The notes beneath the pieces were generated by a model, which saw only the letters and a list, made by a program, of their open reading frames with translations, searched no databases and was not told the origin of the DNA. A stretch of DNA of 64,000 bases from Rhodanobacter thiooxydans. Lineage in GTDB: Bacteria; Pseudomonadota; Gammaproteobacteria; Xanthomonadales; Rhodanobacteraceae. The stretch is from contig NZ_CP088923.1 in assembly GCF_021545845.1 (NCBI RefSeq), positions 3,472,001 through 3,536,000 of the forward strand. Direction: 5' to 3'. Positions within the stretch are counted from its first letter, which is position 1; every line of letters begins with the position of its first letter. The position numbers were made by a program, and so were the translations under genes. Below are positions 1,561-35,857 of the stretch, in pieces.

Positions 1561-2776
1561 GAGGGTGTCGACAAAATAAAAATAGGCTGCGAACATGCCG
1601 TAAACAGGCACTTTGGGCGGGTTTGAATGAGCAAGACCGAGGCGACGCCGGTGAAACGAGGGCGCAAGCCGAGCCTGAACGCAGGGCATGTCACCGCCTT
1701 GCGTACCATCGTGAAGGCATCGCCGCACGCGACCTTGGACGAGGTGACCGGCGCGTTGCGTGAGCAAACGAAGGTCAAGGTCTGTTCGGCCACGGTGCGC
1801 AAGGCGCTGCGGCAGGCCGGTATCCACAAGGCGAAGCCTGCCATCGCCAAGCCGGAACCCACGCCGGCGGATGGTGCACCCCAACGCTATGGCTATACGG
1901 CAAGGCATCGGCGCAAGGAAGGTGCCAGCGGCATGAACACCGACCTGACCGACGCGGAATGGGCGTGGGTGGCTGACTTGTTCGAGCGCGATGGCGGGCA
2001 GGGGCGGCCCGTAAGCTATGCGCGCAAACGCGTCGTCGACGCCTGTTGTTATGTGGTGCGCACGGGGTGCGCCTGGCGCTTGCTGCCCAAGAGCTTCCCG
2101 CCGTGGGCCAGTGTCCACAAGACGTTCAGCCGCTGGGCGAAGGCCGGTTTGTTCGAAGCCATGCATGATCGTCTGCGCGCCCAGTGGCGGGAACGCGAAG
2201 GCCGCAAGCCCGAGCCCACGGCCGGCGTGATCGACGCACAAAGCAACCGCAGCAGCGCGCAAGGCGGCATGACTGGACGCGACGCCGGCAAGAAGGTCAA
2301 GGGTCGCAAACGCCACCTGTTGGTGGACACGCTCGGGTGGTTGTTGGCGGTGAGCGTGACCGCCGCCAGTGTGCAGGATCGCGATGCCGCGCCCGCCGTT
2401 GTGGATCAAGCCGTTGCCAAGGTTCCTGGACTGCTCAAGCTCTATGCCGACGGCGCCTACGCCGGCAAGTGCAAGGAAGGCATCGAGGCCGCGCACCCGA
2501 GCTTGAAGGTCGAGATCGTTCGCCACCCGCAAAACCGCAACACGGGATCGTGGCAGGGTGCACAGCTTCCGCTACTGCCCGACCCCGTGGCCAAAGGCTT
2601 CGTCGTCCTTGCCAAACGCTGGGTTGTTGAGCGCACTCATGCCTGGAACGAGCGCGCCCGGCGACTGATGGTGCACCATGATCGCTCCGCATGGGCGCCG
2701 GTGGCTTGGGTCTGGTTAGTCGAAGCGCGTATCCTCGCCACTAGACTCGCAAGCTGATTGTTTTGTCGACACCCTC
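1561..2776 (+). mobile_element. IS5-family insertion sequence, complete
   Basis: The ends are perfect 16-bp inverted repeats: GAGGGTGTCGACAAAA at 1561-1576 and its complement at 2761-2776. The flanks carry a 3-bp direct duplication, TGA (1558-1560 and 2777-2779). This fits the TNA target duplication known for the IS1031-type subgroup of IS5. The single transposase gene fills the 1216-bp element. It landed in the gap between the secreted-protein gene and hrpA, just beyond a long hairpin, and disrupts no gene. Perfect ends and an intact transposase suggest a recent, possibly active insertion. Confidence 0.93.
1627..2757 (+). CDS. IS5-family DDE transposase with N-terminal helix-turn-helix
   Basis: The product has 376 residues and catalyses cut-and-paste movement of the surrounding element. 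Residues about 10-70 form a winged-helix/HTH resembling the IS630-type N-terminus (RKPSLNAGHV through CSATVRKALRQAG). A basic linker follows. The IS5-type core begins near MNTDLTDAEWAWVADLF (about 103). The acidic triad is visible as VIDAQS, YADGAYAG and VVERTHAWNERARR, so the enzyme looks intact. The linker plus a second possible ATG inside the frame (MNTDLTD) suggests that a shorter product without the HTH could also be made. The ORF is uninterrupted. Confidence 0.93.
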   Translation: MSKTEATPVKRGRKPSLNAGHVTALRTIVKASPHATLDEVTGALREQTKVKVCSATVRKALRQAGIHKAKPAIAKPEPTPADGAPQRYGYTARHRRKEGASGMNTDLTDAEWAWVADLFERDGGQGRPVSYARKRVVDACCYVVRTGCAWRLLPKSFPPWASVHKTFSRWAKAGLFEAMHDRLRAQWREREGRKPEPTAGVIDAQSNRSSAQGGMTGRDAGKKVKGRKRHLLVDTLGWLLAVSVTAASVQDRDAAPAVVDQAVAKVPGLLKLYADGAYAGKCKEGIEAAHPSLKVEIVRHPQNRNTGSWQGAQLPLLPDPVAKGFVVLAKRWVVERTHAWNERARRLMVHHDRSAWAPVAWVWLVEARILATRLAS

Positions 2777-2836
2777 TGAGCAACTGACCCGAAGCCGGCG
2801 CCAGCCTGCTCCTGCGGCGCAGGGGCGCCGTATCGC

Positions 2837-5800
2837 TCAGCCCAGCGCCGCCAGCGCCTTGGCCAGGCGTTTGGCCGAGACCGGCTCGGCGGTCTTCAGT
2901 TCCTGCGCGAACAGCGAGACGCGCCATTCCTCGATCAGCCAGCGCAACTCGTCCAGACCCGCCGGGTCGGCGCCGGCGGCGCGGTGCTGCAGGTACGCGC
3001 GCCAATACGGCAGCACCTGCAGCAGGCGCTGCTGGTCCTTCGCCGGGTCCTGGCGCAGACGCTCGCCGCGCAGGCGCATCGCCTTCAGGTAGCGCGGGTA
3101 GTGCGCCAGCCGTGCCGGCGGCAGCTCGCGCAGGAAACCCGGCACCAGCAGCGCGTCGAACTGTTCGCGCAGATCGTCGTGGCTGGCGCGCGCGAAACCC
3201 AGCAGCGGCGGCTGCAGCCAGGGCTTGAGATCAGCCTGCGCCTCGATGATCGGTTCGGCCAGCTTCAGCCGCTCGACGCCGGCGCCGAACAGCTCGCGCG
3301 CGCACTGCGTGCGCAACGACTCGAACGCGCCGGCGGTGCGCACGTCCAGCTCATGGCGCTGCAGCAGGTCGGCGAAGCCGCCTTCGAGCAGGTCTTCGCG
3401 CAAGCCCTCCACGCCGCCCAATGGAGCGTACTTCAAGGCCAGCGCATGGCCGATCGGCAGCCGGCGGCGCGCCTGCTTCGCCTCGCTGGCCAGCGCATTG
3501 CGCAGCAGCCGCACCACGCCTTGCCGATGCGCCACGCGCGCTTCGTCGCTGCGCTCGAACACGCGCAGCGCCACCGTCTCGCCCAGGTCGACCAGCGCCG
3601 GGAACGCGGTGAGTCCGCCCTCGGAACGCAGCTGCGCTGGGATCTCCTCGAAATCCCAGCTGGCCACGTCTTCGCGGGTCAGCTCGAGATCGGTCTTGCG
3701 CGAGAACGCCTCGCGCGCCGGCCCTTCCCATTGCCCGCGCAGGGCCGCCAGGTCGCGACCGCTGGCCAGCGTCCTGCCACGCTCGTCATGCAGGCGGTAG
3801 CGCATCAGCAGGTGCGGCGGCAGTTCGACGGCGGTGAAGTCGCCGGCGGCAAGCTCGACGCCGGTGGCGCGTTGCAGGAATGCAGCCAGCGCCTTCACCA
3901 GCGATTCGTCGCGCGGCGCCTCGGCCTCGACGAACGCACGCGCGAAGTCCGGCGCAGGCACGAAGTTGCGCCGCAGCGCCTTGGGCAGGCCGCGGATCAG
4001 CTCGGCCACCTTGTCGGCCAGCAGGCCCGGCACCAGCCATTCGCAGCGTGCCAGCCGCAGCGCGTTCAACATCGCCAGCGGCAGCTGCAGGGTGACGCCG
4101 TCGGCCTCGTCGCCAGGAACGAAACGGTATTCGAGCCGGTAGCGTTGCGCGCCGATCTCCAGCGCGGCAGGGAAGGCCCTCGCGTCTAGCCCGGCGCCGC
4201 CGGCCATCACGTCGTCCAGCGACCAGCGCAGCGCCGCCTGCTCGGCCGGGCGTGCCTTGCGGTACCACACGTCCAGCGCGCGACTGCTGGCGATCTCCTC
4301 GGGCAGCTTGCCCTCGAAGAATGCGACCAGCTCGTCCTCGTGGCGAATCAGCCCCTCGCGCCGCTGCTTCGCCTCGATGCCCTGCGCCTCCTCCAGCACG
4401 CGCTGGTTCGCGCGCACGAAATCCACCTTCGTGTCGATGTCGCCGCGCACCAGCGCCTCGCGCAGGAAGATCGCATGGGCCAGCGCGGGATCCTGCCGCT
4501 GGAAGGTGACCGGCCGCTTCTCCACCAGCACCAGGCCAAACAGGCTGACCTGCTCGTACGCCACCACGCAGCCGCGCTTCTTCGACCAGTGCGGGTCGCG
4601 GCAATGTGTGCGCAGCAGGTGCGCGGCCTGCTGCTCGATCCACAGCGGCTCGACGCGTGCATTCATCATGCCCCACACGCGCCCGCCCACGTCGAGGATC
4701 TGCGCGCAGAAGACCCAGTTCGGCGGCGCCTTCGCCAGCGCCGAGCCGGGGAACAGCTGGAACTTGCGCTCGCGCGTGCTCTGGTAGACGCCCTTTTCGT
4801 CCTTGCGGCCGACCTGGGTGGGCAGGCCGGCGAGCAAGGCGCGATGTACTGATTCGTACAACCGATCGGCGTCGACGCTCTCGCTCCCTCCCCTGCTCGC
4901 AGGGGAGGGTTGGGGAGGGGTGCTCTTGATCTTAAAAGCTTCACCCCCTCCCAACCTCCCCCTGCGCGCAGGGGGAGGAGCAGGGCGCGCAGCTTGCGGC
5001 TGCCCATCCAGCTTCCAGCCTAGCTCCCCCACCACCAGCAGCAACTGCCGGTGCAGCTCGCGCCACTCGCGCATGCGCATGAAGCTGAGGAAGTGCCGCG
5101 AACACCAGTCGCGCAGTTTCGACTGGGTCAGCTCCTCGTGCGCATCGTGATAGGCGCGCCACAGGTTCAGCACGCCGGCGAAGTCGGACTTCGGATCGGC
5201 GAACGCGGCGTGTGCGGCGTCGGCCTGCTGGCGTGCATCGGCGGGGCGCTCGCGCGGGTCCTGGATGCTGAGGAAGGCGACGATGACGAGCAGCTCGCGC
5301 AGGGCATGCAGCTGCTCGCCCTCGACCAGCATGCGCGCCAGCTGCACGTCGATCGGCAACTTCGCCAGGGTACGGCCGATCGCGGTGAGCTTGCGCCCCT
5401 CGTCGATCGCGGAAATTTCGGTCAGCCGGCGGAAGCCGTCGGCCACCACGCGCGGGTCGGGCGCTTCCAGGAACGGGAACTCGTCGACCTCGCCCAGCTT
5501 CAGCGCCAGCATGCGCAGGATCACGTTGGCCAGCGACGAGCGCAGCAGTTCCGGGTCGGTGAATGCGGCGCGGCCGGCGAAATCCGCCTCGTCGTACAGG
5601 CGATAGCAGATGCCCGGTCCGACACGGCCGCAGCGGCCCTTGCGCTGATCCGCCGCCGCCTGCGAGATCGGTTCGACATGCAGCCGTTCGAGCTGGCTGC
5701 GCTGGCTGTAGCGCTTGACCCGCGCGGTACCGGTGTCGATCACGTAGCGGATGCGCGGCACGGTCAGCGAAGTCTCGGCCACGTTGGTCGCCAGCACCAC

Positions 5801-26649: not shown

Positions 26650-28167
26650 TTATTGAACAAAGACGGGGATCTTGCCGATCCTTGCTTGCCATTCGCGCGG
26701 GCCGGTCTGGTGTACCGAGCTGCCGCCGGCATCGACCGCCACGGTGACCGGCATGTCCTCGACGGTGAATTCGTAGATCGCCTCCATGCCCAGATCGGCG
26801 AAGCCGACCACGCGCGAGGCCTTGATCGCCTTGGAGACCAGGTACGCCGCGCCGCCCACCGCCATCAGGTACACCGAGCGGTGCTTCTTGATCGCCTCGA
26901 TCGCCGCCGGGCCGCGCTCGGCCTTGCCGACCATGCCGAGCAGGCCGGTCTGGGCCAGCACCTGCTCGGTGAACTTGTCCATGCGCGTCGCCGTGGTGGG
27001 GCCGGCGGGGCCGACCACCTCCTCGCGCACCGGGTCGACCGGACCGACGTAGTAGATGAAGCGGCCGTTGAAATCCACCGGCAGCGGCTCGCCGCGGTTG
27101 AGCATCTCGACCATGCGTTTGTGTGCGGCATCGCGGCCGGTGAGCAGCTTGCCGTTGAGCAGCAGGGTCTCGCCCGGCTTCCAGCTGGCGACGTCGTCCC
27201 GGGTCACCGTGTCGAGGTTCACCCGGCGGCCCTTCGAGGCGTCGTAGGTGAGCTTGGGCCAGTCTTCCAGCGACGGCGGGTCGAGCATCACCGGACCGGA
27301 GCCGTCCAGCACGAAGTGTGCGTGGCGGGTGGCGGCGCAGTTCGGGATCATCGCCACCGGCAGGTTCGCCGCGTGGGTCGGAAAATCCTTCACCTTGACG
27401 TCGAGCACGGTGGTCAGGCCGCCCAGGCCCTGCGCGCCGATGCCGAGCGCGTTGACCTTCTCGAACAACTCGATGCGCAGTTCCTCGGCCCGGTTGGCCG
27501 GGCCGCGCGCGATCAGCTCCTGGATGTCGATCTCCTCCATCAGCGCTTCCTTCGCCATCAGCATCGCCTTCTCGGCGGTACCGCCGATGCCCAGCCCGAG
27601 CATGCCTGGCGGGCACCAGCCGGCGCCCATGGTGGGCACGGTCTTCAGCACCCAGTCCACGATCGAGTCGGACGGGTTGAGCATGACGAACTTGCTCTTC
27701 GCCTCGGAGCCGCCGCCCTTGGCCGCCACGATCACCTCGACGGTGTCGCCCGGCACGATCGACATGTTCACCACCGACGGCGTGTTGTCCTTCGTGTTGG
27801 TGCGCTTGCCGGCCGGGTCGGCCAGCACGCTGGCGCGCAGCTTGTTGTCCGGATTCAGATACGCACGGCGCACGCCTTCGTTGGCCATGTCCTCCAGCGA
27901 CATGGTGGCGTCGTCCCAGCGCACGTTCATGCCCACCTTGAGGAACACGGTGACGATGCCGGTGTCCTGGCATAGCGGCCGGTGGCCTTCGGCGGCCATC
28001 CGCGAGTTGATCAGGATCTGCGCCATCGCGTCCTTCGCGGCGGGCGATTCCTCGCGCTCGTACGCGGCGGCGAGGCTCTTGATGTAGTCGACCGGGTGGT
28101 AGTAGCTGATGTACTGCAATGCGTCGGCGACGGACTGGATCAGGTCTGCTTGCTTGATGGTGGTCAT
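26650..28167 (-). CDS. fumA: Class I fumarate hydratase (4Fe-4S)
   Basis: A 505-residue TCA-cycle enzyme converting fumarate to malate, with alpha (ttdA-like) and beta (ttdB-like) parts on one chain. The three cluster cysteines are visible: LCQDTG (C66), GWCPPGM (C185) and PNCAATRH (C277), with spacing close to known class I fumarases. The C-terminal part has GPTTATRMDKF and GGAAYLVSKAIK. The start at 28167 (MTTIKQ) is chosen; the longer upstream frame has no family similarity. Which of FumA, FumB or FumD it matches best cannot be told. Confidence 0.93.
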   Translation of the reverse strand: MTTIKQADLIQSVADALQYISYYHPVDYIKSLAAAYEREESPAAKDAMAQILINSRMAAEGHRPLCQDTGIVTVFLKVGMNVRWDDATMSLEDMANEGVRRAYLNPDNKLRASVLADPAGKRTNTKDNTPSVVNMSIVPGDTVEVIVAAKGGGSEAKSKFVMLNPSDSIVDWVLKTVPTMGAGWCPPGMLGLGIGGTAEKAMLMAKEALMEEIDIQELIARGPANRAEELRIELFEKVNALGIGAQGLGGLTTVLDVKVKDFPTHAANLPVAMIPNCAATRHAHFVLDGSGPVMLDPPSLEDWPKLTYDASKGRRVNLDTVTRDDVASWKPGETLLLNGKLLTGRDAAHKRMVEMLNRGEPLPVDFNGRFIYYVGPVDPVREEVVGPAGPTTATRMDKFTEQVLAQTGLLGMVGKAERGPAAIEAIKKHRSVYLMAVGGAAYLVSKAIKASRVVGFADLGMEAIYEFTVEDMPVTVAVDAGGSSVHQTGPREWQARIGKIPVFVQ

Positions 28168-28614
28168 GGGTCTGGACAGGCGGCTTCGATTCGGGGACCA
28201 AGGCGCCGACGAACGACTGTTCGCGGCGCACAACCCTCCCATTGTGCCGCAAATCGGCCTTCCGCCCGAAAGCGGCCCGCGGCCGCATGACACGGACAGC
28301 ACGCTTCCGCACGTCCGGCGCGTCAGCCACAAGCCGCAAGAAATTTCTGGCAATCAGACACTTCCATGATCAGACGCGCCGGTCCAGACTCGCGCAACCA
28401 GCGCGGATCGTGTTCAGGGGCCGCGACTGAGGTGTGGGGTCGACTCGACTGCAAGCTGCCGGCGAACTGCCGCGGCCGCAACGAGTCCGACGTTTCGACA
28501 ACTCGTTCCATGCCGGCAGGAACGGCTGCGCGCCGGTGCCGGCGTTGCCGCCTGTCACTTGTCGGCAGCGCCCGCCGGTGCAATCGTCGGGCGGTTGCCC
28601 TACCGGAAACCACC
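28168..28614. other. Divergent intergenic region, fumarase / PhzF gene
   Basis: 447 bp between two divergent genes must contain both promoters. No convincing -10/-35 pair, operator or RNA gene was seen. Frames here are not conserved-looking. Confidence 0.5.
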
Positions 28615-29496
28615 ATGCCCCGCAACCGCCGCTTCATCCAGCTCGACGTGTTCTCCGCCAAGCCGCTGCTGGGCAATCCGCTGGCCGTGGTGGTCGACGG
28701 CGCCGGCCTCGACGACGCCACGATGCAGGCGTTCGCGCGCTGGACCAACCTTTCCGAAACCACCTTCCTGCTGCCGCCGACCAGCGCCGCGGCGGACTAC
28801 CGCGTGCGCATCTTCACCCCGCACCAGGAACTGCCGTTCGCCGGCCACCCCAGCGTGGGCAGCGCCTATGCCGCGATCGAATCCGGCCTGGTGTCGCCGC
28901 ACCAGCGGCAGCTGCAGCAGGAGTGTGCGGCCGGGCTGCTGCCAGTGCGCGTCGAGGGCAGCGGCAGCGGGCGGATCATCCACGTGCAGGCGCCGCCAGC
29001 CGGGTTGCAGACCGTGGCGGCACAGCAGCGTGCCCGGCTCGGCTGGGCCATGCATGCCGAACTGGCGGAAAGCCAGCTGCGCCTGGTCGACAACGGGCCG
29101 CGGTGGTTCGTCTGTAACCTGCACGAGGAGGCGGCGGTGCGCCAGCTGCAGCCCGACCTGGCCGCGATCGGCGCGCTTTGCGTAGCCGCCGGCGCCGTCG
29201 GCGTCAGCGTATTCGGCCGGCAGCGGAGCGGCGAGGCGAGCATGGCCGTGCGTGCGTTCTGCCCGGCCGACGGCACTCCCGAGGACCCGGTCACCGGCAG
29301 CGCCAACGCGGCGATCATGGCCTTCCTTGCCGAGGTCGGCGACCCGGCGGGTTATGGCCTGCGCTACCGCGCCAGCCAGGGGCGCGAAGTGGGCCGCGAC
29401 GGCTGCGTCGAGGTGGTGCGCGACGCGACGGACGGCAGCATCAGCATCGGCGGCGCCTGCGCCGTGGTCATCCGTGGCGAGCTGCAGCTGGACTGA
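28615..29496 (+). CDS. PhzF-family isomerase/epimerase-like protein
   Basis: A 293-residue protein with the diaminopimelate-epimerase-like double fold of PhzF/YddE. Signatures are QLDVFSAKPLLGNPLAVV (9-26), the catalytic Glu in NLSETTFLL (E48), FTPHQELPFAGHPSVGSA (about 66-83) and DPVTGSANAAIMAFL near the C-terminus. PhzF isomerises a phenazine precursor, but most homologues have no known substrate and no phenazine genes are present here. The start at 28615 is chosen because the family N-terminus begins there. The permease gene follows after 64 bases, so the two may be co-expressed. Confidence 0.85.
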   Translation: MPRNRRFIQLDVFSAKPLLGNPLAVVVDGAGLDDATMQAFARWTNLSETTFLLPPTSAAADYRVRIFTPHQELPFAGHPSVGSAYAAIESGLVSPHQRQLQQECAAGLLPVRVEGSGSGRIIHVQAPPAGLQTVAAQQRARLGWAMHAELAESQLRLVDNGPRWFVCNLHEEAAVRQLQPDLAAIGALCVAAGAVGVSVFGRQRSGEASMAVRAFCPADGTPEDPVTGSANAAIMAFLAEVGDPAGYGLRYRASQGREVGRDGCVEVVRDATDGSISIGGACAVVIRGELQLD

Positions 29497-29560: not shown

Positions 29561-30880
29561 ATGAACGACGCCTCTCCCGGCTACGTGCGCAGCCTGCGCC
29601 CGTGGGATGCTGCGCTGATCGTGGTCGGCGGCGTCATCGGCGGCGGCATCTTCCTCAATCCCGGCATCGTGGCGCAGCGCACCGAGTCAGGACTGGCGCT
29701 GCTGCTGATGTGGGTGGCCGCCGGCCTGCTCACCCTGGTCGGCGCGCTGTGCTACGCCGAGCTGGGCGCGCGGCGGCCGCGCGCGGGCGGCAGCTACGTG
29801 TACCTGCGCGAGGCGTTCGGGCCGCTGGCCGGCTTCCTGTTCGGCTGGACCATGCTGCTGGTGATCTACTCCGGCTCCACCGCGGCGGTGGCGACGATCT
29901 TCGCCCGCTACGCCGCCGCGCTGTTCGGGCTGCCGGCGGCGTGGACGTTGCCGCTCGCCGTCGGCGCGCTGGTGTTCGTCAGCGGCATCAACCTGTTCGG
30001 CATCCGCCTCGGCGCTCAGGTGCAGAACCTGTTCGCCCTGCTCAAGCTGCTGGCGGTGGCGGCACTGGTGGGGTGTGGCCTGTTCCTCGCCGGCGCCGGG
30101 CACGGCCAGGTGCTGGCGGCCGATCCGGCTCGCCAGGACGTCGGTTTCATGGGCGCCGCGCTGCCGGTGCTGTTCGCCTATTCCGGCTTCACCTATCTCA
30201 ACAACCTCGCCGGCGAGGTGCGCGACCCGCAGCGCACGCTGCCGCGCGCGCTGACCCTCGGCATGCTGCTGGTGATCGGCGCCTATGCGCTGGTCAACGT
30301 GGCTTATCTCGCGGTGCTCGGCCATGCCGGGCTGGCCGCCAGCAGCGCGCCGGCGGCGGACGTGATGCAGCAGGTGGCCGGCCCGCTTGGCGCGAAGCTG
30401 ATCGCGCTGGGCGTGGCGATCTCCACCCTGGGCTTCTGCAACATCACCCTGGTCGCCGGCGCGCGAGTGCTGCAGGTGATGGGCGAGGACGGCCTGTTCT
30501 TCCGCGCGGTGGCGCGGCTGCACCCGCGCTGGCGCACGCCGAACACCGCGCTGCTGCTGCTTTCCGGCTGGGCCATCGTGCTGGCGCTGTCCGGCAGCTA
30601 CGGCCAGCTGCTGGACTACGCCACCTTCGGCGACTGGCTGGCCTGCGCGATCGGCGTCGCCACCCTGTTCTGGTATCGCCGCCACGACGCCGTATCCGGC
30701 GGCTTCCGCGTGCCGGGCTACCCGTGGCTGCCGCTGCTGTTCGTCGCCGCGGTGACGCTGGTGGTGCTGCTGTCGCTGCGCGACAACCCGCGCAACACCG
30801 GCATCGGCCTGCTGATCATGCTCGCCGGCGTGCCGGTCTATGCGCTCTGGCGTCGCCTGTTCAGCCGCACGCGTCCCTAG
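29561..30880 (+). CDS. APC-superfamily amino acid permease
   Basis: A 439-residue inner-membrane transporter with about 12 transmembrane segments. The TM1 signature VVGGVIGGGIFLNPG (about 22-36) is the unwound substrate/Na+ region of APC carriers, followed by ELGARRPRAGGSYVYL. The family exchanges or imports amino acids (YfnA/SteT type). Specificity cannot be read. It lies just downstream of the PhzF-like gene, and a molybdenum-hydroxylase-like pair follows 50 bases later on the same strand. Confidence 0.88.
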   Translation: MNDASPGYVRSLRPWDAALIVVGGVIGGGIFLNPGIVAQRTESGLALLLMWVAAGLLTLVGALCYAELGARRPRAGGSYVYLREAFGPLAGFLFGWTMLLVIYSGSTAAVATIFARYAAALFGLPAAWTLPLAVGALVFVSGINLFGIRLGAQVQNLFALLKLLAVAALVGCGLFLAGAGHGQVLAADPARQDVGFMGAALPVLFAYSGFTYLNNLAGEVRDPQRTLPRALTLGMLLVIGAYALVNVAYLAVLGHAGLAASSAPAADVMQQVAGPLGAKLIALGVAISTLGFCNITLVAGARVLQVMGEDGLFFRAVARLHPRWRTPNTALLLLSGWAIVLALSGSYGQLLDYATFGDWLACAIGVATLFWYRRHDAVSGGFRVPGYPWLPLLFVAAVTLVVLLSLRDNPRNTGIGLLIMLAGVPVYALWRRLFSRTRP

Positions 30881-30930: not shown

Positions 30931-31467
30931 ATGGCGCGCGTGCAAGCCCAGGTCCTGTCGACCGCCCAGGAAAGCGGCGTCGTGGCGGAGAAGATCCGCG
31001 ACGGCATCGACCTCGAGGTCAACGGCGAGCGCTTCCGCCACACCGGCGATCCGCAGATGCCGCTGCTGTGGTACCTGCGCGACGTGCTGCGGCTGACCGG
31101 CACCAAATACGGCGGCGAAGCCGGCGAAAACGGCGCCGACCTGGTGCTGGTCGACGGCAAGGCGGTCTCCGCGATCATGCAGCCGCTGGCCAGGCTGGCC
31201 GGCAAGGCGGTGACCACCGTGGAAGGTCTGGCCGCCAACGACGGCAGCCTGCATCCGCTGCAGCAGGCCTTCATCGACGAGGACGCGATCGGCTGCGGCT
31301 ACTGCACGCCAGGTTGGCTGATCGCCGGCATCGACCTGCTGCGGCGCAAACCCCAGCCGGACGATGGCGACATCGACCAGCTGCCGAACCTGTGCCGCTG
31401 CGGCTGCCAGACCCGCGTGCGCCGCGCGATCAAGCGCGCCGCCGCCGGCAAGGCAGCCCGCGCATGA
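30931..31467 (+). CDS. Xanthine-dehydrogenase-family small subunit lacking one [2Fe-2S] site
   Basis: 178 residues, homologous to the electron-transfer small subunit of IorA/CoxS type. The C-terminal cluster is intact: CGYCTPG (C122, C125) and CRCGC (C155, C157). The N-terminal ferredoxin-type cluster is lost. Where relatives have KYGCGEGECGAC and a fourth Cys after VDGK, this protein reads KYGGEAGENGAD and VDGKAVSAI, so all four ligands are replaced. The frame is intact and the flanks are well conserved, so this does not look like random decay. It overlaps the large-subunit gene by ATGA. Electron flow through the normal two-cluster wire seems impossible. Confidence 0.85.
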   Translation: MARVQAQVLSTAQESGVVAEKIRDGIDLEVNGERFRHTGDPQMPLLWYLRDVLRLTGTKYGGEAGENGADLVLVDGKAVSAIMQPLARLAGKAVTTVEGLAANDGSLHPLQQAFIDEDAIGCGYCTPGWLIAGIDLLRRKPQPDDGDIDQLPNLCRCGCQTRVRRAIKRAAAGKAARA

Positions 31468-33719
31468 GCGGCCACGGCATCCGGCTCTCGCGCCGCCGCT
31501 TCCTGCAGGTGCTGGCCGGCGGCGCCGGTGCGCTGGTGGTGGGCATCCGCGTCGCCGACGCCGCCGACGCGCCACTGCCGCCGGCCATGCTCGGCGACAA
31601 CCTCTACGACCTCGGCGCCTACGTGCGCATCGACGCCAGTGGCAACGTGCTGATCGGCGCACGCGACCCGGACACCGGCAGCGGCGTCGCCACCGCACTG
31701 CCGCGGATCATCGCCGACGAACTGGACGCCGACTGGAACCGCGTCGGCGTGGTGCCGCTCGGCCTTGGCGTGGAGAACGACAACGGCAAGCCGCGCTGGA
31801 CCTACGGCCGCCAGCTCGGCGGCGTCGGCGGCTCGATCCCCGCCGCGTGGAACGACCTGCGCCAGATCGGCGCGGTGGCGCGCTGGCTGCTGCTGCAGGC
31901 GGCGGCGCGCCGGCTCGGCGTGCCGGCCAGCCGCCTGCACTGCGAGGCCGGCACGGTGATCGCGCCGGACGGCCGCCGCTTCGGCTACGGCAGCCTGGCC
32001 GCCGATGCCGGCAAGATCGCGCTGCCGTCCAGCGTGCCGCCGCTGAAGAACGCCGCCGACTACCGTCTGATCGGCCAGAGCGCCGGCGACGTCGATGCGC
32101 GCGCCATCGTCACCGGCACCGCCCTCTACACCATCGACCACTACTACGGCGACGCGCTGGTCGCCGTGTTGACGCATTGCCCGTGGCCGGACGGCACGCT
32201 GGCACACATCGACACCACCGACACGCTCGCCGTGAAAGGCGTGGTGAAGGTCGTCCAGCTCAAGCCCGAGCCCGGCCAGCCGCTGGGCAGCACGGTGATC
32301 GCCCCGGCGGTGGCGGTGCTGGCCGAAAACACCTGGGCCGCCTTGCAGGGCCGCGCGAAACTCCAGCTCGAATGGAAGCCCGGCGCCAGCAGCGGCGAGA
32401 ACAGCGCTGCGCTGGAGCAGCAGGCCACCACCCTGCTCGCCGGCGATGCCCTGCCCACCAGCCGCGTGCGCAACGACGGCGACGTCGACGCCGCCGGCAG
32501 GAAAGCGGCGCGTCGCCTCGACGCCACCTACGTGCAGCCGTGGCTGGCGCACGCCACCGCCGAACCGATGAACTGCCTGGTGCGGCTGGACAAGGACCGC
32601 GCCAGCCTGGTCGTGCCGACCCAGGCGCCGCAGAAAGCCTGGGCCGTGGTGCAGCGTCTGACCGGTCTGGCCCCCGACCGCATCGACATCCGCGTGCCGC
32701 GCGTCGGCGGCGGCTACGGCCGCCGGCTCGACCACGACTACGTCGCCGAAGCGGTGCTGCTGGCCAAGGCTGTCAACAAGCCGGTGCGCCTGCTGTGGAC
32801 GCGCGACGAGGACTTCAGCCACGACTGTTACCGCGCCGGCAGCGTGCACCGGATCAGCGCGATCGTCGACCGCAAGCGCCAGCTGCTGGCCTGGCACCAG
32901 CGCATGGCCAGCGCCTCCGCGCTGGCGCGTCGCGGCACGCCGGACGACCGCCTGTGGACGTCCGAACTGCAGGCCGACCAGTTGCCCGCCGCGCTGGTGC
33001 CGAACTACCGCAGCGACTGGTACGCGCTGGAATCGGCGCAGCCGCGCGGCCCGATGCGCGGCATGCCGCACCTCAGCAACGCGTTCGCGGTGGAAAGCTT
33101 CATCGATGAGCTCGCGCACCAGATGCGCGAGGACCCGCTGAAAACCCGCCTACGCATCCTCGGCGAACCGCGCGCGTTGCCGTTGAGCAGCGGCGGCACA
33201 CTGGACACCGGCCGCCTGGTGAACGTGCTCAAGCTGGTCGCCGACCGCATCGAGTGGAAGAACTGGCTGCGCACCATCAACGGTCTCGGCATCGCCTGCT
33301 GGCACGTCGACGGTGCCTACGTGGCGCATGCGATCGAAGCGGCGATGCAGGGCGAACAGCTGGTCATCCAGCGCGTCGTCTGCGCGGTCGACGTCGGCCG
33401 CGTGATCAATCCGCTGGGGCTGCAGGGCCAGGTGGCCGGCGCCACGCTGGACGCGCTGTCCATCGCGCTGAATGCGGCCATCACCGTCAAGGACGGCCAG
33501 GTGCAACAGCACAGCTACAAGGATTATCCGCTGGCCAGCATGGCGCAGCTGCCGAACGACGTGGAAGTGATCACCGTCCCCGGCGACCGCGCGCCGGCCG
33601 GCGCCAGCTTCCTCGCCATGCCCACCGCCGCCCCTGCGCTGGCCAACGCCGTGTTCCGCGCCAGTGCCGTGCGCGTGCGCCGGCTGCCGCTGATGAAGGA
33701 ACTGCTGCGACTGCTGTGA
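31464..33719 (+). CDS. Xanthine-dehydrogenase-family large subunit (IorB-like), active site altered
   Basis: A 751-residue protein of the isoquinoline 1-oxidoreductase beta type. It starts with a twin-arginine signal (SRRRFLQVLAGG, about 9-20), so it would be exported folded. Family landmarks are DPDTGSGVATALPRI, GGGYGRRLDHDYVAEA and AQPRGPMRGMPHLSNAF (usually with R for G). The C-terminal motif holding the catalytic Glu (normally G-x-G-E-P-G-x-PP) is replaced by GASFLAMPTAAPALANAVF, so the Glu is missing. Whether it still binds molybdopterin is unclear. It overlaps the small subunit by 4 bases and is followed by a terminator. Confidence 0.85.
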   Translation: MSGHGIRLSRRRFLQVLAGGAGALVVGIRVADAADAPLPPAMLGDNLYDLGAYVRIDASGNVLIGARDPDTGSGVATALPRIIADELDADWNRVGVVPLGLGVENDNGKPRWTYGRQLGGVGGSIPAAWNDLRQIGAVARWLLLQAAARRLGVPASRLHCEAGTVIAPDGRRFGYGSLAADAGKIALPSSVPPLKNAADYRLIGQSAGDVDARAIVTGTALYTIDHYYGDALVAVLTHCPWPDGTLAHIDTTDTLAVKGVVKVVQLKPEPGQPLGSTVIAPAVAVLAENTWAALQGRAKLQLEWKPGASSGENSAALEQQATTLLAGDALPTSRVRNDGDVDAAGRKAARRLDATYVQPWLAHATAEPMNCLVRLDKDRASLVVPTQAPQKAWAVVQRLTGLAPDRIDIRVPRVGGGYGRRLDHDYVAEAVLLAKAVNKPVRLLWTRDEDFSHDCYRAGSVHRISAIVDRKRQLLAWHQRMASASALARRGTPDDRLWTSELQADQLPAALVPNYRSDWYALESAQPRGPMRGMPHLSNAFAVESFIDELAHQMREDPLKTRLRILGEPRALPLSSGGTLDTGRLVNVLKLVADRIEWKNWLRTINGLGIACWHVDGAYVAHAIEAAMQGEQLVIQRVVCAVDVGRVINPLGLQGQVAGATLDALSIALNAAITVKDGQVQQHSYKDYPLASMAQLPNDVEVITVPGDRAPAGASFLAMPTAAPALANAVFRASAVRVRRLPLMKELLRLL

Positions 33720-33842: not shown

Positions 33843-35441
33843 TTACAGGCAGCCCGGGAACTTGAACGACGCGATGCGCGTGTTCCAGTTGAACGAGCCG
33901 GTGCTTTTCAGGTACTCGGTGGTGTACCAGAACGTGCAATCGTCGACCGGGTCGACCGTCATCGCGCTGTAGTCGCCCCAGCGCGACAGGTTGTTGCCGC
34001 TCTGCGAACCCAGGCCCTCGATGATGCTGTTCTCGGCCTGCATGGTGCTCAGCGCATCGGTGCCGAGGCGGCCGGTGTAGCGGATCGCCGGGTGCAGTGC
34101 GCTGCTGGATACGCTGTAGCCCAGCGCCATGTCGCCCATCTTGTCCATCGCCACCGAGCCCATCCAGCGGTAGCTGGTGTCCGGCGAGAAGGTGGACTGC
34201 TGATAGACCACCGGCGTAGTGCCCGGGCTGCGCACCTCATACCAGCGCACGCCGGTATACGGGTCGCGGTGCGTGGTGCCGACCTGCACCGAATGGCTCA
34301 CCACCAGCGACTCGTAAGTGCCGAAGTTGCGGTAGGCCAGGCGGAACATCAGCCGGTCGGCCAGCGAGTCGAGCTTCTGGCTGGTGCCAGACTGCGGAAT
34401 GCAGGTACCGCCGCCGCAGGCCGCGGCGAACGAGGCCACTGGGATGCTGACCGGGCCGGTCAGCGTGGTGTTGGCCGTGTTCGCCCAGTCGACGTGGAAC
34501 TTCCACAGGTTCAGCTTGCTGGAGCCGAAGTTCATCAGGTAGTTCGGCGAACCGGCCGGCGGCGCGGTGGCGCCGTCGAGGTCGGCCGGCAGCACACCGC
34601 CATAGCTGCTGGACAGCTGGAAGCACTGCTGCGTGGCCGCGGCGCCGCTCAGCATCGCGTTGCGGTTATAGGCGCAGAGCTTCGCGCCGGAGAACGTGTT
34701 GCCGCTGAACATGTTGAACGTTTCGTAATAGGCATCCGGCCATACGCCCATCTTCGGGTAGTCCGGGAAAACGCTGCCGTACGGGAACGCGTAGCGGTAG
34801 TAGGCGCCGGTGGCGTCGCTGGTCGCCGACACCGCCACGCACTGGTAGTACGGCGCGGCAGTCACCGCGAACTGGGAGATCACCCAGCGGCCGGCCGCCT
34901 TGTCGTAGACCACGGTGGCATCGCCGTCGTTGTCGGTTTCGCACGGGCCACCGAAACCGGCCCACAGCGTGTTGGTCGTCACCGGGCCGTAGGTCACGGC
35001 CTTGGTCGACTTGTCGAACACCGCGAACGCGCTGTTGACGATCTGCACGTATTGCGTGGCACCGACCGCACCGTTGGTATCCGGCGGCGCGCTGTTGACG
35101 GTGAACGTACCCTGCGGGCCGCTGAAGCCCTGGCCCACGCCGTCGAAGCCGGCGCCGAGTGCGGGCGCGAAGCTGCCGGTGGGGCTGCTCTGCACCGCGC
35201 CGTCGGTCTGGTTGCCTGGGCCGTCGATGAAGGGCAGCCGGTGGGCCGGATGTGCGTGCGAGTTCTTGGCGAAATCATCCGGACGCGGCATCACGCCGCG
35301 CAGCGAATGCAGGGTGTCGTGCTGCACCGCCGGCGTGACCTCGGGCCCCGTGGTGGTGGCGGCCTGGGCGCTTCCGGTGATGGCAAGACTGATGGCGGCA
35401 CACAGCGCGAGGCTGAGGCCGCCGGACGTTGACAATGACAT
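33843..35441 (-). CDS. Large secreted protein of unknown function
   Basis: A 532-residue protein with a clear signal peptide (MSLSTSGGLSLALCAAISLA, cleavage after AQA near 28). The mature part has repeated beta-type stretches with aromatic residues (PPDTNGAVGATQYVQIVNS, FAVFDKSTKAVTYGPV, RYAFPYGSVFPDYPKMGVWPD, GDMALGYSVSS, PVDDCTFWYTTEYL) and pairs of cysteines (CETDNDGD, CAYNRN, CGGGTC, CTFW, PGC). The layout suggests an extracellular beta-propeller stabilised by disulphides. I do not recognise a named enzyme. A good ribosome site (GGAGGGAGAA) fixes the start at 35441. It has no partner genes. Confidence 0.8.
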   Translation of the reverse strand: MSLSTSGGLSLALCAAISLAITGSAQAATTTGPEVTPAVQHDTLHSLRGVMPRPDDFAKNSHAHPAHRLPFIDGPGNQTDGAVQSSPTGSFAPALGAGFDGVGQGFSGPQGTFTVNSAPPDTNGAVGATQYVQIVNSAFAVFDKSTKAVTYGPVTTNTLWAGFGGPCETDNDGDATVVYDKAAGRWVISQFAVTAAPYYQCVAVSATSDATGAYYRYAFPYGSVFPDYPKMGVWPDAYYETFNMFSGNTFSGAKLCAYNRNAMLSGAAATQQCFQLSSSYGGVLPADLDGATAPPAGSPNYLMNFGSSKLNLWKFHVDWANTANTTLTGPVSIPVASFAAACGGGTCIPQSGTSQKLDSLADRLMFRLAYRNFGTYESLVVSHSVQVGTTHRDPYTGVRWYEVRSPGTTPVVYQQSTFSPDTSYRWMGSVAMDKMGDMALGYSVSSSALHPAIRYTGRLGTDALSTMQAENSIIEGLGSQSGNNLSRWGDYSAMTVDPVDDCTFWYTTEYLKSTGSFNWNTRIASFKFPGCL

Positions 35442-35857
35442 GAATTTCTCCCTCCAGAAAACAGCATTGGCTTTCTCTGAACCGGATACGGACGCGAGTA
35501 ACGGCGCCTGCGGCGACGTGCCGCGAGTCCACACCGGTGACGCCTTTCCGTATCGCGGCATGCGATGCCGCGCCCCCACGGAAAGGTGCCAGCATATGGC
35601 GCCGCGCAACTTCCGGCAGCCTTTCAATTCCGCGCAATTTCCTGCGAATACGCGGCCAGTTTCGCGTTAGCCCATGGCGGTCACGGCAACGGCGACCGCC
35701 ACGCCACGACGCCGGCACTTCCATCAACTCCGGTGCCATCGAAAAGCGGGGCGAGGTTCGACGTCGAGGTGCCGCCCGCCGAGGCGCGCGGCATGCCTAC
35801 AACGGAATCGTCATGCGCGATACGTGATGCTGGGGCGCCAACACGCCGGAGCTCCCG
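35442..35857. other. Non-coding stretch upstream of the secreted-protein gene
   Basis: 416 bp without a convincing gene. The promoter of the secreted-protein gene should lie in its left part. No repeat family, RNA gene or clear box was identified. Confidence 0.5.

Follow-up and report, generated by a model that had tools for sequence, protein, structure and literature searches.

A gene pair with altered cofactor sites

The window, the whole 64,000-nucleotide stretch of the Rhodanobacter thiooxydans genome analysed here, carries on its forward strand two open frames that overlap in an ATGA. The first (30931..31467) encodes a 178-residue IorA/CoxS-like small subunit (S), in which one [2Fe-2S] site is kept, and the second (31464..33719) a 751-residue IorB/ALDH-like large subunit (L). 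The genome, a 4.2-Mb assembly in two contigs, holds one match to S and one PF02738 protein.

Alignment showed the C-terminal [2Fe-2S] ligands of S to be kept, at C122, C125, C155 and C157 (31294..31401, forward strand). In an alignment of 110 sequences, the N-terminal ligand sites are erased (31114..31176, forward strand): relatives read C-G-x-G-x-C-G-x-C ... C, and S reads G62-E-A-G-E-N67-G-A-D70 ... I82, with G62, N67, D70 and I82 in the ligand positions. The same alignment places G121 (31291..31293, forward strand) where relatives have a Gln before CGYC, a residue that we take to be a pterin contact matching bovine XO Gln112.

L starts with a Tat-type leader (LSRRRFLQ...ADA; 31485..31562, forward strand). 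The RRxF[LIV] motif that marks it was found in the leader of L at 70/70 loci (L001-L070), and on this motif L is a predicted twin-arginine leader protein. The former GQG motif now reads DTGSGVAT (31671..31694, forward strand; alignment of 110 sequences); its Gln is presumably also a pterin contact, matching bovine XO Gln1040. In the former catalytic-Glu loop, PAGASFLAMPTAAPAL (33594..33641, forward strand), G713-A-S-F716-L-A-M-P replaces the G-x-G-E of relatives, and F716 aligns with the Glu of Escherichia coli PaoC (5g5g/5g5h) and of 8gy3_C. By sequence comparison, L has the cofactor fold but not the determinants that usually go with the cofactor. Passages of a study of mouse AOX1 describe the Glu as essential, the E1265Q variant being inactive (PMC2671166).

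An earlier note on this DNA had claimed that the four N-terminal ferredoxin-type ligands of S are replaced and its C-terminal Cys kept, that L lacks G-x-G-E, and that the two genes have clean, full-length frames with an ATGA overlap. The alignment bore out the first two claims, with Phe716 as the residue at the Glu position, and we found both frames open and the overlap as described.

The substitutions are shared across the Rhodanobacteraceae

We searched for S in 120 genomes, the window's own among them, and detected it in all but two of the 44 further Rhodanobacter genomes (42/44); G005 and G011, where it was missed, are each 89% complete. Seventy loci were fetched (L001-L070), of which L001-L057 split into 43 Rhodanobacter loci and 14 loci of other Rhodanobacteraceae genera. 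In all 57 the N-terminal motif is Cys-free and the C-terminal CxxC...CxC intact, and absence of the N-terminal Cys in 57/57 loci makes the pattern one beyond chance. In a class-wide sample of 369 genomes, matches to S with an E value no higher than 1e-40 came from three: the genome of the window, another member of the Rhodanobacteraceae, and one whose match has 47% identity.

The 110 sequences were drawn from the window, from L031-L070 and, with added named genomes included, from L071-L150, of whose 80 loci 69 were used. L071, L082, L084, L096, L098 and L103 were left out as repeats, and L099, L106, L109, L124 and L140 for a missing or short subunit. L001-L030 carry at most about 500 residues of L, with the Glu loop outside the part read.

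Within this set, 48 sequences lack the N-terminal Cys, 16 have eight Cys and no Glu, and 46 have eight Cys with Glu. The N-terminal Cys are either all missing (48/110) or all four present (the other 62), and all four C-terminal [2Fe-2S] Cys are present in 110/110. Among sequences without N-terminal Cys, the Glu column holds Phe in all 47 that reach it (L047 stops before the Glu loop), the Gln before CGYC has become Gly (48/48), and GQG has become GTG or GSG (48/48). Glu-keeping sequences have the Glu, the Gln before CGYC and the GQG Gln all intact (46/46). In the 16 Glu-less, eight-Cys sequences, which include Luteibacter and Oleiagrimonas, the Gln before CGYC is gone in 12 and GQG reads GEG in 7.

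Some loci carried further changes. The end of L is altered in L054 from Dyella silvatica (LANACCNAP, in a 785-aa frame), possibly through a frameshift or an assembly error, and in G049 one stop was counted inside the S match, yet the frame read is 175 aa. Outside the set of 110, L155 of G048 (1791-4600, minus strand) is a full-length relative, also from the Rhodanobacteraceae, that has lost three of the four C-terminal Cys and the Glu and has an altered N-terminal Cys spacing, making it a near mirror image of the window's pair.

Order of losses and strength of selection

A quick tree with trait columns removed, and with SH-aLRT support and no bootstrap, was built from 57 of the 110 rows, hand-picked to thin near-copies; 23 of these came from the 48 sequences without N-terminal Cys. 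On this 57-row tree, loss of the N-terminal cluster maps to one branch (SH-aLRT 100), which sits within a 28-row group (SH-aLRT 99) in which every remaining row has eight Cys and no Glu. Because the cluster loss is nested inside these Glu-less, eight-Cys rows, we read this as the Glu and pterin contacts having probably been lost first, and the N-terminal cluster later and once. The tree implies a minimum of five changes in the state of the Glu, and starred branches force four of them; gains and losses are not separated in this count. Glu-less, eight-Cys sequences also occur outside the main clade, on several branches (L107, L110, L114, L122, L066, L063, L104 and L064), and these scattered relatives suggest that catalysis may have been lost repeatedly within the order.

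We estimated dN/dS at 0.03-0.27 in nine close pairs inside the altered lineages, and at 0.10-0.38 in two Glu-keeping pairs; the altered genes are thus under strong purifying selection.

Cofactor and maturation genes

Searches of 72 Rhodanobacteraceae genomes for MoaA (counted as missing when no match exceeded 66 bits), for MoaC and for MoeA each failed to find the gene in 27, and these 27 were identical from search to search. All 27 hold S and L, with L read in part in some; 25 are at least 90% complete, and G025, G027, G061 and G066 are single contigs. The other 45 genomes, the window's included, have all three genes. A single PF00384 match, whose open frame spans 779-1230 aa, occurs in each of the 27, and those examined, in G025 and G068, are NuoG; the window's genome encodes two PF00384 proteins, one of them NuoG and the second in a 1295-aa frame. 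Assembly gaps are unlikely to lie behind the missing genes, given three genes jointly absent in 27 genomes, four of them single-contig. Among the genomes without cofactor genes, G037 (86% complete) carries an additional, distant S match containing an internal stop (C314:2761-3219). In the 27 genomes lacking these three core cofactor genes, molybdenum chemistry of the pair is very unlikely.

XdhC was surveyed alongside PF02738 proteins in 49 of the 72 family genomes, picked mainly by assembly quality. It was over the cut-off in none of the 30 genomes where the pair supplies the only PF02738 protein (G006, G056 and G068 gave matches below the cut-off), and was present in 19/19 genomes with more than one such protein. 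In an order-level control of 48 genomes, XdhC occurred in 28 of the 29 with a PF02738 protein and was over the cut-off in 0/19 without. The sole order-level genome with PF02738 proteins and no XdhC, G109, is possibly an incomplete assembly or a cofactor-free case. MocA exceeded its curated cut-off in none of the 72 family genomes, the window's included; scores of at least 78 bits were confined to genomes that encode another XO-family protein or have another S match, and the G068 match scored 73.7 bits. This pattern points the same way as the absence of XdhC, albeit weakly, since no match is over the cut-off and that of G068 lies in a 583-aa frame.

Published experiments bear on both readings of a missing XdhC. 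XDH from an R. capsulatus xdhC mutant is described in part of one report as having no cofactor and keeping its Fe-S clusters and FAD (PMC2997495), so such a complex can assemble empty. R. capsulatus XdhAB produced in E. coli without XdhC is described, in part of another, as cofactor-loaded yet inactive (PMC10609526); because of this result, and because G109 exists, absence of XdhC alone is not proof of absence of the cofactor. For the window's genome, the only arguments against a cofactor are that XdhC is missing, that no clear MocA turned up (a weak line) and that the contacts are lost.

The fold is kept and the former pocket conserved

The Pfam domains listed for L are limited to MoCoBD_1, MoCoBD_2 and Ald_Xan_dh_C, the first two over their cut-offs and with no NuoG/PF00384 domain; S matches none but Fer2_2. 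All listed NCBIfam matches of S and L fall below equivalog cut-offs, the models including PaoA/PaoC, XdhA/XdhC subunits and 4-hydroxybenzoyl-CoA reductase. The best alignments to solved structures, among the matches listed, were 5y6q (aldehyde oxidase small subunit) for S and 8gy3_C for L. Set against the xanthine oxidase family, the pair has the large-subunit cofactor-domain fold, and lacks the catalytic Glu and, of the two [2Fe-2S] sites in the FeS subunit, the N-terminal one; cofactor genes are missing in 27/72 genomes and XdhC in all 30 pair-only genomes.

The former active-site loops are more conserved than random blocks, of which 2/5000 were as low, in a comparison (excluding L047 and L054) whose loops were picked after viewing the alignment and include glycines conserved throughout the family. 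Listing the new residues of these loops (excluding L047 and L053) showed them to be invariant or nearly so and mostly non-polar or aromatic (F716, L717, M719, W613, V620, Y418, A660 and A664), with S715, D423 and H424 as polar members. Among the stretches of S whose conservation was measured, 119-128 ranks highest. An emptied pocket that is altered but strongly conserved suggests a possible new role, and the mainly non-polar and aromatic character of its new residues favours packing or binding over new catalysis.

Genomic neighbourhood

An APC-superfamily L-type amino-acid permease of 439 aa (29561..30880, forward strand) ends 50 bases upstream of S. A permease lies upstream of the pair in 42 of the 48 loci without N-terminal Cys (one a remnant) and is lacking in 6; it is upstream in 10/16 Glu-less loci and in 6/41 Glu-keeping loci, counting those with a match or with 1,500 or more bases of upstream sequence. 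Since the permease also stands beside Glu-less and some Glu-keeping pairs, the link predates the loss of chemistry in the lineage. With 6/48 loci lacking a permease, an obligate unit of pair and permease is unsupported. At L033, a 96-residue stretch upstream of S matched L-type permease, and the pair is intact.

Flanking ORFs were collected within 3 kb on the upstream side of the pair and 5 kb on the downstream side. The CxxCH haem motif was found in none of the 22 largest of 36 shared flanking-ORF clusters and in 4/505 flanking ORFs, all outside those 22, which leaves an adjoining haem-protein partner without support. Upstream of the permease in the window lie a PhzF-family isomerase (28609-29496, forward strand) and a fumarate hydratase (26653-28353, reverse strand), and related ORFs recur upstream in 7 to 9 of 40 other loci. 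Convergent with L is a 594-aa frame (33843-35627, reverse strand) with no Pfam or NCBIfam match.

A probable molybdenum-free complex and its rivals

We consider the pair to be a maintained complex that is molybdenum-free and holds one cluster, with a probability of about 0.87. That it very likely works without the cofactor is supported by the 27 genomes that keep it without MoaA, MoaC and MoeA, by XdhC in 0/30 pair-only genomes, and by the changes to the Glu, the GQG Gln and the Gln before CGYC. The ancestor would have been a two-subunit molybdenum hydroxylase that had a Tat leader and resembled IorAB or the membrane aldehyde dehydrogenases. Within the Rhodanobacteraceae, the pair would first have lost the catalytic Glu along with other expected cofactor contacts, and the N-terminal [2Fe-2S] cluster next, once, and would now function without the molybdenum cofactor and without XdhC. 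The ATGA overlap, the Tat-type leader and the complete cluster site that is kept point to S and L still assembling around one [2Fe-2S], folding inside the cell and being exported by Tat in folded form. The former pocket may bind a small solute or merely pack the core. We propose, at low confidence, that the complex may have a binding or scaffolding task in the periplasm, possibly on behalf of the upstream L-type permease.

That the genes are decaying remnants we regard as practically discounted. The catalytic and cofactor residues are gone, the end of L in L054 is altered and a stop falls in the S match of G049, but dN/dS is 0.03-0.27 in the altered lineages, and S occurs in 42/44 other Rhodanobacter genomes, the misses being 89% complete. 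Decay confined to one genome was likewise rejected, the substitutions being family-wide and selection strong. The earlier note had judged the genes to be maintained, and the dN/dS range and the substitutions common to sister species agree. It had also asked whether the substitutions occur together in one clade, which they do on the tree, and had named normal homologues in sister species or dN/dS near 1 as results that would count against it; neither was found. Its suggestion of altered chemistry or a non-catalytic assembly is supported, and the evidence now extends beyond it: where the three core cofactor genes were not found (27 genomes), it counts against molybdenum chemistry of any kind. 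A molybdoenzyme of altered chemistry, loaded without XdhC, is a highly improbable reading: the fold persists, as do several loop glycines, and cofactor genes are present in 45/72 genomes, the window's included, but the three core genes were not found in 27 genomes that hold the pair, XdhC is absent from the 30 examined genomes with the pair as only PF02738 protein, and in the part of the mouse AOX1 study cited, E1265Q inactivated the enzyme (PMC2671166).

Two further rivals accept the loss of molybdenum and differ over what the complex does. It is doubtful that S and L form a redox protein, with the [2Fe-2S] cluster as a periplasmic one-electron sensor or relay that docks on L as a scaffold. 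All 48 sequences of this type retain the four C-terminal Cys, and residues 119-128 are the most conserved stretch of S measured; yet the usual electron path is without the cofactor at one end and the N-terminal cluster at the other, the 22 largest of the 36 flanking-ORF clusters contain no CxxCH, and the relative L155 in G048 is a full-length pair despite the loss of three of the four C-terminal Cys. Conversion of the former active site into a new, molybdenum-free enzyme we think unlikely, because most new loop residues are non-polar or aromatic and no new metal site is evident, even though the old active-site loops hold new, invariant or near-invariant residues under strong conservation. We favour a binding or scaffold role ahead of a redox relay or sensor, and the latter ahead of a new enzyme.

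Relation to known systems and significance

Among the matches listed, the best VIA-align match of both S and L is the membrane-bound aldehyde dehydrogenase of Gluconobacter oxydans (8gy3 B and C), with the 8gy3_C match spanning nearly the full length of L. That enzyme is cofactor-bearing and operates together with a cytochrome subunit. Its Glu is present in 8gy3_C and its N-terminal Cys in 8gy3_B, whereas both are missing in the pair. The likeness to IorAB is one of label, one source naming relatives isoquinoline 1-oxidoreductase small and large subunit; the pair itself lacks the Glu, the N-terminal cluster and the GQG Gln. L also aligns with PaoC and S with PaoA of E. coli PaoABC, which in contrast, according to part of one report, has FAD and two clusters and needs the XdhC-like PaoD (PMC2997495). 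Labels of relatives such as aldehyde oxidase or molybdopterin-binding subunit are probably misleading. NuoG of complex I likewise keeps a molybdoenzyme fold without Moco, as passages of one source describe it (a Moco-less fold; PMC10609526), but is related to DMSO-reductase-type enzymes, whereas S and L belong to the xanthine-oxidase family. The pair would thus be that family's counterpart to NuoG, a molybdoenzyme fold kept for something else.

Within the open-access literature, we found among the matches listed no function for the pair and no molybdenum-free XO-family protein; a paper on Rhodanobacter root colonisation (PMC10719396) has no word starting with isoquinoline or molybd, and six residue names looked for in PMC8615798 do not occur there. 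A 2018 survey reported 305 bacteria with molybdoenzyme genes and without the cofactor pathway; in the parts of it drawn on here, these 'orphan molybdoproteins' are mostly DMSOR and XO family homologues, no sequence-level features of orphans are identified, and tests of their use of Mo or W are called for (PMC6147048). Compared with the orphans in those parts of the survey (PMC6147048), the pair can be described by particular residues, by a single clade and by the order in which sites were lost. The family provides features that mark an orphan, a relative order of loss, living intermediates (Luteibacter and Oleiagrimonas) and genomes without the pathway, and the features, intermediates and pathway-less genomes together make the question of molybdenum dependence directly testable.

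We tentatively picture a molybdenum hydroxylase turned periplasmic receptor or scaffold, near-universal in the sampled genus, whose pocket would have been rebuilt under a new constraint and which would work with a permease; losses in sister lineages would make some 'orphan molybdoproteins' truly independent of molybdenum. If so, related lineages of the order would have dropped the Glu more than once, with one losing the other Fe-S site instead. Some 'orphan molybdoproteins' would then be molybdenum-independent proteins, and not enzymes awaiting an unseen cofactor pathway.
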